From assembly GCA_946479515.1 (NCBI GenBank), contig CAMLGF010000003.1:90338-154337 (forward strand): a DNA stretch of 64,000 bases, given 5' to 3'. The notes beneath the pieces are model-generated. The model was not told where the DNA came from, did not search any database, and saw nothing but the letters and a program-made list of their open reading frames with translations. Below, piece after piece: positions 22,286-54,898 of the stretch. The stretch is from an uncultured Pseudomonadota bacterium (GTDB lineage Bacteria > Pseudomonadota > Gammaproteobacteria > Steroidobacterales > Steroidobacteraceae). The first letter of the stretch is position 1. Every line of letters starts with the position of its first letter. Position numbers and translations under genes: made by a program.

Positions 22286-22321
22286 GTCCCCGTTTCCTGG
22301 AAAACGAGGAATGTCCCCATT
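22286..22321. repeat. TGTCCCC-type intergenic element, copy 2
   Basis: GTCCCCGTTT and TGTCCCCATT flank a hairpin TTTCC-T-GGAAA, followed by GAGGAA before the second core. Compared with the copy at 8732 the stem bases differ on both sides but still pair. It ends four bases before the stop of mltA, between convergent genes. Confidence 0.7.
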
Positions 22322-31314: not shown

Positions 31315-32043
31315 TCAATAGGCGCGTCGCGCGCGTGAGCGCTGCATCGCCCGGGCGGCGACGCTCAGCCAGTTCGCGAGGTCGAGTGGACACAGGCACA
31401 CGAGCATGTCGCCTTCGGCATGGCCGGGATTCATTCTGGCGAAGAATGCCAGCGCTGGGTCGGAGTCCCGGGCCATGACCAGCGGCGCCGCGGTCTCGCG
31501 CATGCGCTTGAGACCCGATCGCGCAACGACGCCGCGTTCCGGCTGCCAGGCCGGCCCATGGACCTGGCTGGCCAGGGCATCGATCAGCGCCGTCTGCGCG
31601 GCCGGCGTCGGCCGGTCGTGGCGTGGCCAGTAGGTGCGAAAATTGCGCGGCAACAGCAGGTAGCTCTTGTAGCTGAAGGTGTCGAAGAACCAGTAGATAG
31701 GCCGTAACGGATGACGCAATCGCTCGCGCAGGAAAACGCGGAACCCCAGCTTCTGCAGCAAGTTGCGACCACGCCAGTTCTCACGGAGCAGCACATGCGC
31801 GGTGGAGATGGCAGTGACGCGCCGCCCGCGGAACGACGCCGTGAATATATCCAGCGACACCATGCCGAGCAGGGCGCCGTTCATCCGGATCAAGGCGACG
31901 CGCTGCCGCCGGCGCAATTCGCTTTCGGCATGGGTGCGCTCGACGTGGAAGAATTCCTGGGTGAGTACCCATACCTCGTCCCAGTCCTGGGGGGTGAGGG
32001 CGTCGGTCGTCATGACGGTGGTCACGATGCGGTCGGCGGACAT
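31315..32043 (-). CDS. Putative GNAT-like protein of unknown function
   Basis: A 242-residue protein. The N-terminal half has the layout of a GNAT fold: RVALIRMNGALLGMVSLDIF, then AISTAHVLLRENWRGRNLLQ, where NWRGRNLLQ resembles an acetyl-CoA pyrophosphate loop. The segment PIYWFFDTFSYKSYLLLPRN is distinctive and conserved-looking. The C-terminal 70 residues do not match a known domain. The acceptor is unknown. Confidence 0.6.
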   Translation of the reverse strand: MSADRIVTTVMTTDALTPQDWDEVWVLTQEFFHVERTHAESELRRRQRVALIRMNGALLGMVSLDIFTASFRGRRVTAISTAHVLLRENWRGRNLLQKLGFRVFLRERLRHPLRPIYWFFDTFSYKSYLLLPRNFRTYWPRHDRPTPAAQTALIDALASQVHGPAWQPERGVVARSGLKRMRETAAPLVMARDSDPALAFFARMNPGHAEGDMLVCLCPLDLANWLSVAARAMQRSRARRAY

Positions 32044-32193
32044 GCGGCCAGTGTGCCATGAGCTTCGTCAACCGGCCGATGCCGCCTGGACGGGGCTCCG
32101 GCGGGGCGCCGCCAGGTCGGCGGGCGGGCGTACAGCAATTTCTGGCCGCCGGACTGGATGGATACGGGGGCCGACCGGATATATGGTTCACGC

Positions 32194-35100
32194 ATGCCGC
32201 TTCCCCAGTTCCATCCTGCCGTTCAGGCGTGGTTCTCCCGTGCGTTTCCCCATGGCGCGACGCAGGCGCAGCTCGATGCCTGGCCGGCGATCGCGGGTGG
32301 GGGACATGCGCTCATCGCCGCTCCCACGGGATCGGGCAAGACGCTGGCCGCGTTTCTGGCCGCCATCGATTCGCTTGCGCGGGAGGGCGCCGCGGGGCAG
32401 CTGCAGGACGCGACCCGGGTGGTGTACGTCTCGCCGCTGAAGGCGCTGTCGAACGACATCCAGCGCAATCTCGAGCAGCCGCTGGCGGGCATCACCGCCG
32501 AGATGCTGAATCACGGTGCGCAGGCGCCGCAGATCCGTGCCGCGGTGCGCACCGGCGACACCTCCCAGGCCGAGCGCGCCATGATGCGTCGGCTACCGCC
32601 GCACATCCTGGTCACCACGCCCGAGTCCCTCTATCTACTTCTGACCAGCGCCTCGGGCCGGCAGATGCTGCAGACCGTGCGCACGGTCATCGTCGACGAG
32701 ATCCACGCCGTCGCGCAGACCAAGCGCGGCGCGCATCTGACGCTCACCCTCGAGCGGCTGTGCGCCAACGCCAGTGGCCCCGTGCAGCGCATCGGGCTGT
32801 CGGCGACGCAGAAGCCTATCGAAGAGATCGCGCGGTTCCTGGTGTCGGTGCCGGGTGAAGGTTCTCGTGGTAATTCCGGGTTTCAACCCGGCGACCCGCA
32901 AGTGCCCTTGACCTTCGATCGAAACCCGGAATTACCACGAGAACCTTCACCCGGCACCGTCTTCATCGCCAACACCGGCCACGTTCGGGAGCGAGACATC
33001 AATCTCGTGATGCCCGGCGCGCCGCTGGAAGCGGTGATGTCGGGCGAGGTGTGGGCGACGGTCTACGATCAGCTGGCGCAGCTCATCAACGCGCATCACA
33101 CCACGCTGATTTTCGCCAACACGCGCCGCATGGTGGAACGGGTGTCGCGTCATCTGGCCGAGCGGCTCGGCGAAGAACATGTCGCCGCTCACCATGGCAG
33201 CCTGTCCAAGGAAACCCGTTTCGACGCCGAGCAGCGCCTGAAGGCCGGCAGGCTCAAGGTGATGGTCGCGACCGCATCCCTGGAACTCGGCATCGACATC
33301 GGCGACGTGGAGCTGGTCTGCCAGCTCGGTACGCCGCGCAGCATCTCGGTGTTCCTGCAGCGCGTGGGACGCGCCAATCACTCGGTGGGCGGCGTGCCCA
33401 AGGGACGCATCTTCCCGTCCAGCCGCGATGAGCTGGTCGACTGCGTCGCGCTGCTCGATTCCGTGCGCCGCGGCGAGCTCGATCGCCTGCACATCCCCGA
33501 GCATCCGCTCGACGTGCTCTCGCAGCAGATCGTGGCCGAAGTGTCCGCGCGCGAATATGGCGAGGACGAGCTCTACGACCTCGTGTGCCGCGCCTATCCG
33601 TACCGCAATCTGGCGCGCAAGGATTTCGACGCCGTGGTGCGCATGCTGGCCGAGGGAATCGACACCCGCCGCGGTCGCCGCGGCACCTACCTGCACCGCG
33701 ATGCCGTCAACCGCCGCCTGCGCGCCCGCAAGGGAGCGCGGCTGACCGCGATCACCTGCGGCGGCGCCATCCCCGACAACGCCGACTACCAGGTGATCCT
33801 CGAACCCGCCGGAACCTTCGTCGGCACGCTCAACGAGGACTTCGCGATCGAAAGCCTCGCGGGCGACGTCTTCCAGCTCGGCAACACCTCGTATCGCGTG
33901 TTGCGCGTCGAGGCGGGGCGCGTGCGCGTGGAGGACGCCAAGGGTCAGCCGCCGTCCCTGCCGTTCTGGCTGGGCGAGGCGCCGGCGCGCACCGACGAGC
34001 TCAGCGCGGCGGTCTCGCGCCTGCGCGCCGACGTCGAGGCGCTGCTTCCCGAGGTGAACGGCGCGACGCTGGCGCGCGCCATCGACAGCATCGAGGAGCA
34101 CTACCGTCTGCCGCGGCCCGCCGCGCACCAGCTGGTGGAATACCTCGCGGGCGCCAAGGCGGTGCTCGGCAAACTACCCACGCTCGACACTCTGGTGTTC
34201 GAGCGGTTCTTCGACGAATCCGGCGGCATGCAGCTGATCATCCATGCGCCATACGGCGCCCGGATCAACCGCGCCTTCGGTCTGAGCCTGCGCAAGAAGT
34301 TCTGCCGCACGTTCAACTTCGAACTGCAGGCCGCGGCCACCGAGGACGCCATCGTGCTGTCGCTCGGCGAAACGCACAGCTTCGAGCTAGCGAGCGTGGC
34401 GCGTTTCCTGAACAGCAGGACCGTCGAGGACACGCTCATCCAGGCCATGCTGGATTCGCCCATGTTCACCGCGCGCTGGCGCTGGAATGCCAGCATCTCG
34501 CTGGCCATCCGGCGCGCGTCGGGTGGCAAGCGCACGCCGCCCAACATCCAGCGCATGGCGGCCGAAGACCTGATCGCCGTGCTGTTCCCCGACCAGATCG
34601 CCTGTGCGGAGAATCTCAGCGGTCCGCGCGAGATCCCCGACCATCCGCTGGTCCAGCAGACGCTGCACGACTGCCTGCACGAGGCCATGGACATCGACGG
34701 CCTGCGCAGGCTGCTGGAGGGCCTGGAATCCGGCGCCATCCGCGTGGTGGCGAAAGACCTGCCGCAACCGTCGCCGCTGGCCGCGGAGATCCTGGGCGCG
34801 CGTCCCTACGCGTTCCTCGACGATGCGCCGCTCGAGGAGCGCCGGACCAACGCGGTCGCGCAGCGCCGCTGGCTCGATCCGGAAACCGCCGCGGACATGG
34901 GCAAGCTCGACCCTGCGGCCATCGCGCTGGTGCGCGAACAGGCCTGGCCGGAGGTTACCAACGCCGACGAATTGCACGATGCGCTGCATGCCATGGGCGT
35001 GATCACGGCCGGGGAAGGCGCGCGTGCGCACTGGGCGCGCTGGCTCGACGAACTCATCGCGGCCAGGCGCGCCACCCGCCTGACAGCCGCCGGCAAAGAC

Positions 35101-54261: not shown

Positions 54262-54339
54262 GGCCCGCAGTGTCCGCAAGCCGTGTGACCCGGAGAAGGA
54301 ATTTTTGACGAGGTGGAGAAATCCGGGGACGAGTGGCGA

Positions 54340-54479
54340 AAAAAAAGGGGACAAAAAAAATGGGGACATGCTTCGTTTTCTTTGTAACAAACGCAGGCGG
54401 TGCTTTCGGCTCCAGGAGCGCACAGGTTTGTTACAAAGAAAACGAAGCATGTCCCCATTTTCTTTGTCCCCCCTTTTTT
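54340..54479. repeat. Long inverted-repeat element with GGGGACA cores
   Basis: Left arm 54360-54392 and right arm 54426-54458 are perfect reverse complements over 33 bases, extended outward to 54347 and 54471 with a single mismatch; the A-rich and T-rich ends (54340-54346, 54474-54479) continue the symmetry with a two-base slip. The loop is 33 bases. Each arm has two GGGGACA or TGTCCCC cores, as in the elements at 8732 and 22286. It overlaps the 3' end of the MerR-family gene. Confidence 0.92.
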
Positions 54480-54898
54480 CCGCCCCCTCTTTCTCTTCCC
54501 CCCAATCTCCCCGACCCGGCGACGCGCAGGATGCGTCGGAACGTTGGGCATTCCATGTGGCTGGGCGCGCGGCACACGGACGCATGCAGCAGACCTTCTC
54601 GGATGGCGGTGAGTCTGCGGATGGTCCGATCGAGCTCTTCCGCCTTGGATGCCAGCACGCGTTTGTCGATCCGGGGCCTGCCTTCGGAGGCGAACATCGC
54701 GGCCAGCTCCTCGAGCGAAAAGCCCGCGGCGCGGCCGAGCGCGATCAAGGCCAGCCTGTCGAGTACCCGCGCATCGAACACCCGGCGCAGCCCCATGCGG
54801 CCGATGGACCGGATGAGTCCCTTCTCCTCGTAGTAGCGCAGCGTCGACGCCGGCAGGCCGGATTGCTTCGCGACGGCATTGATGTCGAGATTCTTCAC
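54431..54898 (-). CDS. MerR-family transcriptional regulator with repeat-derived C-terminus
   Basis: A 155-residue regulator from GTG 54898. NLDINAVAKQSGLPASTLRY and YYEEKGLIRSIGRMGLRRVF are the MerR winged-helix, and SLEELAAMFASEGRPRIDKR starts the dimer helix. A cysteine in LLHASVCRAPSHMECPTFRR (two Cys) could bind metal or sense redox. The last part, from about GRLGGRERGGGKKGG onward to the stop, is encoded by the long hairpin element at 54340-54479. A 16-base palindrome lies right before its start. It faces a methyltransferase gene. Confidence 0.85.
   Translation of the reverse strand: MKNLDINAVAKQSGLPASTLRYYEEKGLIRSIGRMGLRRVFDARVLDRLALIALGRAAGFSLEELAAMFASEGRPRIDKRVLASKAEELDRTIRRLTAIREGLLHASVCRAPSHMECPTFRRILRVAGSGRLGGRERGGGKKGGQRKWGHASFSL

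Follow-up and report, generated by a model that had tools for sequence, protein, structure and literature searches.

A putative REPIN-type palindrome in frame in the inter-domain linker of an Lhr-type helicase, with a candidate clamp-docking motif in its spacer

The 64-kb stretch of DNA analyzed here, referred to as the window, contains an lhr gene whose product comprises the Pfam domains DEAD, Helicase_C, WH_Lhr, DEAD_assoc, WH3_Lhr and WH4_Lhr (Table 1). The protein does not reach the NCBIfam equivalog cut-offs, its nearest named records come from Steroidobacteraceae, and no viral contigs encoding a relative of it were found. A long palindrome lies inside the gene, and the open reading frame bears out its placement between helicase motif III (GLSATQKP) and the second RecA domain, as proposed in a first-pass annotation of this DNA. 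That annotation had also described the loop of E. coli Lhr at this place as short, which holds for E. coli K-12, where the linker reads FLGGDRPVTVVNPPAMRHPQIRIVV. No comparable insert is seen when the solved homologues 7lhl and 5v9x are aligned to the window Lhr. An AlphaFold2 model covering residues 13-481, computed from 33 sequences with a mean pLDDT of 78.5, falls below a pLDDT of 50 at model residues 220-240, i.e., Lhr residues 232-252, which form a coil that follows the helix after motif III and leads up to the second RecA domain. From this prediction, the insert is very likely a disordered and tolerated loop. Looping out of the protein in this way would explain its tolerance and would expose a docking peptide.

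Table 1. Coordinates of the lhr gene and of the features of its inter-domain linker in the window
Feature	Position	Strand	Remarks
lhr, Lhr-type DNA repair helicase, 1493 aa	32158..36639	+	ORF intact through the palindrome; Pfam
Inter-domain linker, helicase motif III to start of second RecA domain	32812..33000	+	Recurrent insertion site in relatives; low pLDDT
Left arm of inverted repeat	32846..32884	+	After one base, REP head GGTGCCGGGTG at 32847-32857
Spacer, 36 nt, hairpin loop, coding	32885..32920	+	Inverted-repeat analysis
QVPLTF, codons 248-253	32899..32916	+	Fits Q-aliphatic-x-[LM]-x-[FL]
Right arm of inverted repeat	32921..32959	-	REP head on minus strand, 32958-32948

Recomputing the palindrome returned arms complementary at 39 of 39 positions and a total length of 114 nt, exactly as first annotated. 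With equal base frequencies, the expected number of perfect pairs this good within 200 nt is about 4e-17 for the window, and the palindrome is not a chance occurrence. The element had been described as 38 codons; it does have that length and is in frame, yet it begins on the second base of codon 230 and so is not aligned to codons. Two of its six frames are open throughout, the lhr frame among them. The arms begin with CGGTGCCGGGTG, and neither GTAG nor CGTC stands unpaired at one end, the mark of the GTAG and CGTC REP superfamilies. The REP head of the left arm is identical to the head of REPs dispersed in the genome of a relative, G001. The window holds one copy of the lhr element; a 24-mer of its arm, searched with up to two mismatches, had no match in 217 genomes of the family, and another 24-base stretch of the arm had no exact match in genome contig records. 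Elsewhere in the window, a second REP-like palindrome occurs at 54338-54480 (arms of 55 nt at 95%, spacer of 33 nt, core GGGGACATGCTTCGTTTTC), with one additional copy, diverged in sequence, at 22300-22318 on the minus strand.

Aligning Lhr of close relatives, a check suggested in the first-pass annotation, uncovered other in-frame palindromes at the same site. We examined 80 genome loci that carry an lhr relative. Besides the window, 78 were parsed (L006 and L072 were dropped), and four of them have at the lhr site an inverted repeat far above 30 shuffles: L001 of genome G002 (arms 53/53, loop 32 nt), L003 (arms 41/41, loop 83 nt), L010 of G001 (arms 31/31, loop 32 nt) and L079 (arms of 45 nt with mismatches, loop 25 nt). 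Marginal inverted repeats at L038 (score 11 versus 10) and L048 (11 versus 9) were counted as noise, and the remaining 72 loci have no inverted repeat exceeding their own shuffles. A search of the 217 genomes of the G001 family gave a match in 82, and 30 loci, overlapping partly with the earlier genes, were read; in this second locus set, L150 was dropped and L153 was read in part. Genome G087, a single contig of 4,649,652 bp, has arms of 37 nt with one mismatch at the lhr site, and G181 (L146) has putative arms of 15 nt with a loop of 58 nt. The lhr elements of the window, G001 and G087 have an outer GGTGCCGGGT in common and differ in the inner arm, and the lhr arms of G002 belong to another family. 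Peptides that resemble REP-encoded ones, such as SPSGRG and PPPFDGGGLGWG, are also found at this site in the more distant Lhr proteins P0109, P0113, L038, L059, L063 and L079 (of which L079 was searched in its own genome), and the site may thus be permissive beyond this clade.

In all five relatives' genomes tested, arms of the lhr palindrome are found elsewhere in the same genome. With the lhr copy included, the lhr element has 118 matches in G001 (40 of 61 candidates scored), 115 in G002 (40 of 58) and 58 in G087 (40 of 132), with weaker recurrence in G003 (13 matches) and G004 (15). With the G001 query, no hit in G002-G004 was stronger than E 0.03; with the G002 query, G001, G003 and G004 had no hits at E 1. 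By sequence similarity, the REP families are not common to the different genomes where these were cross-searched, apart from hits at chance level. Among the copies in G001, 27 distinct inverted pairs were parsed, one of them in lhr, and their spacers differ, ranging from 3 to 42 nt. G001 also has two Y1_Tnp genes, one of which (C93:3346-3681) is flanked by REP heads in inverted orientation, at 2774 and 3795; judged from its layout, this is a REPIN/RAYT arrangement with a RAYT-like gene. In the 64-kb window no RAYT was detected: proteins of four relatives used as RAYT queries gave only short weak hits, the best of 14 aa at E 0.012 and overlapping a REP-like repeat.

Where these copies lie with respect to genes was assessed by codon log-odds of the flanks at 86 distinct places (40 in G001, after removal of two double-counted ones, 24 in G087 and 22 in G002), a heuristic that covers part of the copies. 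Only five of the 84 places outside lhr lie in an ORF that is open through the element, namely a YgiQ-family protein and a carboxyltransferase in G001, a PbpC-like protein in G002, a lipA-lipB read-through and a moaE-moeB read-through, the last with half an element. Of the genes at the classed places, none but lhr carries a copy in each of the three genomes; the G002 lhr copy lies outside the classed set yet is in frame. At L110 and L111 of G001, lipA-lipB and moaE-moeB are single open frames through REPs, which are possible REP-made gene fusions. At L195 of G002 (C154:1600-6213), the PbpC-like gene with its in-frame REP insert lies about 3 kb from a Y1_Tnp gene, with other REPs near. At L242 of G087 (C1:324812-325138 and flanks), a Y-family protein (Pfam IMS), presumably ImuB-like, contains in frame a perfect palindrome with 55-nt arms and a loop of 31 nt, directly preceding RPLWLL; the counterpart genes in G001 and G002 have no palindrome.

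At the protein level, a homologue search from the window Lhr listed 120 proteins, which with the window make 121, and 115 of these were parsed (the exceptions being P0035, P0062, P0070, P0071, P0076 and P0117); four extra homologues from a search with P0060 were kept out of the counts. Inserts of at least 20 aa are present in 81 proteins (the window and 80 homologues), and inserts shorter than 20 aa in 34 of the 115. Each peptide was back-translated into an inverted repeat and scored against 100 of its own shuffles. By this measure 53 of the 81 long inserts back-translate to palindromes, compared with 1 of 81 for control pieces of the same length elsewhere in the same proteins, and the other 28 do not reach a palindromic score. 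The encoded arms are of many kinds, including VPGxxS...PGT, KGDRxIF...LSPFP and NGDIPDL. In a FastTree tree of 105 Lhr backbones with the insert removed (proteins below 1300 aa were excluded here and in the backbone/insert comparison), insert-free homologues sit nested among insert-bearing ones. With classes assigned by simple text rules, the fewest changes on this tree are 46 for arm class, 31 for palindromic, long or short state and 34 for motif class. The vertical signal is weak (Mantel r -0.26, p at most 0.001). P0022 and P0088 share 95% backbone identity and have unrelated inserts, and P0010 and P0036, with backbones 85% identical, have similar ones. We also considered a spacer passed on vertically while only its arms are replaced; some vertical signal remains, but the explanation is weakened, as in only 17 of 75 cases is the most similar insert that of the closest relative by backbone. 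Swapping of inserts among relatives suggests that the lhr site behaves like a socket for exchangeable cassettes, and the exchange may take place by new insertion, by conversion from dispersed REPs or by recombination between species. Separately, P0072 and P0073 carry identical 43-aa inserts in backbones that are 84% identical, pointing to a recent insert transfer or to a chimaeric assembly.

The spacer of the window element encodes QVPLTF, the sole match within the window Lhr to the strict beta-clamp-binding consensus given in the available text of PMC13254535, Q-aliphatic-x-[LM](x)[FL]; a clamp-binding motif of the form QL[SD]LF is described in PMC9690074, as far as its accessible part goes. 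A loose motif, QxxLx[LF] or xxDLF, picked after viewing the inserts, occurs in 60 of the 81 (shuffle mean 1.9, maximum 9 in 1000 rounds), that is, in 37 of the 53 palindromic inserts, always in the spacer, and in 23 of the 28 non-palindromic ones. Because this motif was our own choice after the fact, the published consensus was then used. It matches 18 of the 81 inserts (shuffle mean 0.39, maximum 5 in 1000 rounds), leaving 63 outside it, and its density is 5.17 per 1000 aa in the inserts versus 0.02 in the rest of Lhr (4 matches in 163,882 aa); since the homologues are related, three of the 18 matches having QAPLPL, these counts are not independent, and the consensus itself is short. In the elements of at least 50 nt outside lhr in G001, G087 and G002, the strict consensus occurs in none of 78, in any of six frames. 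The corresponding control for the loose form failed in G002, where all 21 non-lhr elements match it in some frame and the DLF half is encoded in some frame by the REP arms themselves, so that only the strict consensus was used there; in G001 it was uninformative because the lhr insert itself (GQSLVLPLTP) lacks the loose motif. This insert and that of G087 (GETLSLLPH) have neither form. G001, G002 and G087 each have QMDLFA[AS]P in the C-terminal part of a Y-family polymerase (Pfam IMS), which we assume to be Pol IV. From these counts, we tentatively regard the insert spacer as a candidate beta-clamp docking motif, an assignment with slightly less than even odds. Archaeal Lhr is reported to prefer fork DNA in the accessible text of PMC7437997, which makes docking to the replisome plausible, though unproven. 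The clamp-docking loop is the most interesting and the least certain part of our reading.

On sequence grounds, the window element is in all probability an intragenic element of REPIN-type origin. Our overall reading, to which we assign a probability of roughly 0.65, is that a REPIN sits in a tolerated Lhr linker, that this site has been re-occupied, and that the spacer has been selected as a docking motif. A RAYT (Y1) transposase would copy an element made of two inverted REPs and a short spacer, and one such copy would land in frame in Lhr, where a flexible linker joins the two RecA domains. Tolerance of the insert would follow from the open frame in which it is read, whose product is a Gly/Pro/Ser-rich coil looping out of the helicase. 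The site would then be re-occupied repeatedly or its insert exchanged, and selection would favor spacers whose peptide serves as a short docking motif. The likeliest partner would be the beta sliding clamp, and such docking would hold the fork-acting Lhr at the replisome. That the arms of the window element are themselves multi-copy and RAYT-placed is suggested by analogy with the relatives. The earlier description of a protein-coding mobile palindrome finds support in the in-frame, multi-copy palindromes at the same site in relatives, with the mobility of the window arms a matter of this analogy. A broader proposal, in which coding REPINs are exchangeable cassettes that bring a clamp docking motif to a repair helicase, their arms bringing in the cassette and being swapped between lineages and the loop peptide kept by selection, seems to us rather unlikely.

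The most serious competing explanation is neutral selfish insertion, whereby REPINs hit a tolerant linker and the spacer motif is a functionless by-product of ancestry or of cassette exchange; we consider it a real contender, though somewhat improbable. It gains from the other in-frame copies (in the YgiQ-family protein and carboxyltransferase genes of G001 and the PbpC-like gene of G002), from the insert-free homologues nested in the tree and from the strict consensus being present in just 18 of 81 inserts, and, where in-frame REPs lie in linkers or loops, the accessible text of PMC3733652 allows for neutrality while speculating otherwise for repair genes. Against it are the loose motif in 23 of 28 non-palindromic long inserts and alongside unrelated arms, and the strict form in 0 of 78 other elements of three relatives. 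The RNA-level switch put forward in the first-pass annotation, with the hairpin slowing lhr transcription or translation, fares much worse and is improbable; in this reading the mRNA hairpin itself would be the trait under selection. The hairpin is predicted to be very stable (-85.5 kcal/mol, z -13.8, with 0 of 200 shuffles equal or better) and palindromes recur at the lhr site, but beyond this stability nothing positive speaks for a switch: Rfam gave no match at gathering thresholds across 32000-34000, among relatives with perfect arms the arm sequence differs and arms of 31 to 53 nt enclose loops of 32 to 83 nt, 28 of 81 long inserts are non-palindromic, and 34 of 115 parsed proteins have inserts below 20 aa. 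A palindrome formed in place without a mobile element, through arm-to-arm conversion or a template switch, would be comparable to those of nematomorph mitochondrial genes. Such an origin would fit the perfect arms, and perfect coding palindromes of a different kind are reported in the available part of PMC6649704; it does not account for the lhr arms of relatives being dispersed genomic families, and we judge it highly improbable. The assembly or cloning artefact also raised initially is the least credible of all, for although chimeric reads can yield perfect inverted repeats and P0073, listed without a contig, could be a chimaera, the reading frame is preserved and like inserts occupy the same site in several independent assemblies, including the single 4.65-Mb contig.

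Among known systems, the closest to our preferred reading of an intragenic REPIN is that of REPINs, or REP doublets, mobilized by RAYT (TnpA-REP), as described in the accessible texts of PMC3116915 and PMC8266576. The window element resembles these in having two inverted REPs and a spacer and in forming a hairpin, and its relatives in being multi-copy, mostly outside genes and, in G001, accompanied by a Y1_Tnp gene between REPs; it differs in lying in frame within lhr, whereas REPINs are as a rule extragenic, only 14 of about 1,067 REP 16-mers overlapping genes in the available text of PMC3116915. Since intragenic REPs are documented (PMC3733652, available text), we class the element only as intragenic REPIN-type. 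In-frame REP dimers (GTAG, CGTC) in DNA synthesis and repair genes were reported in 2013, encoding 20-30 aa in UvrA, UvrB, RecBCD and DnaE2, and recB of two Xanthomonas species has REPs at about one site (PMC3733652, same text). The present case shares with them an in-frame position within a repair protein, and differs in its head GGTGCCGGG, in the use of one site across many relatives and in a motif recurring in the spacer; the main text of that paper, as available, mentions neither 'lhr' nor 'clamp'. Rickettsia palindromic elements, compared here by description, are likewise in-frame palindromes in conserved genes (105-146 bp; PMC2229807, accessible part) and differ in taxon. Nematomorph mitochondria have equally perfect intragenic inverted repeats; there the arms encode conserved protein, while the window arms encode a variable linker (PMC6649704, available part). 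The RecB motif QVEMEF follows the same Q-aliphatic-x-[LM]-x-[FL] pattern in a repair helicase as the window Lhr, with clamp binding shown for RecB (PMC13254535, available text) and only presumed for Lhr. In-frame REPs inside tnpA-REP genes were described in 2018, in a paper that also names the beta clamp as a presumed contact of related transposases (PMC6006769, available text). In the accessible texts of the REP literature, no link between REP spacers and clamp motifs was found, and a search combining Lhr with clamp terms returned no 'lhr' among the matches listed. What appears to be new is the one recurrently occupied site, the swapping of its inserts and the candidate clamp-docking loop.

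REPs are mostly extragenic, and their genic copies are suspected to be neutral. The linker of one repair helicase, refilled in many relatives with different palindromes that often enclose a short recurring peptide, would offer a natural test case for the conversion of mobile DNA into protein sequence. The lhr site bears on why REPs are reported in so many DNA repair genes and on whether Lhr docks to the clamp, and, if coding REPINs do act as exchangeable docking cassettes, the many in-frame REPs published for replication and repair genes might owe their presence to recruitment of docking peptides rather than to chance.
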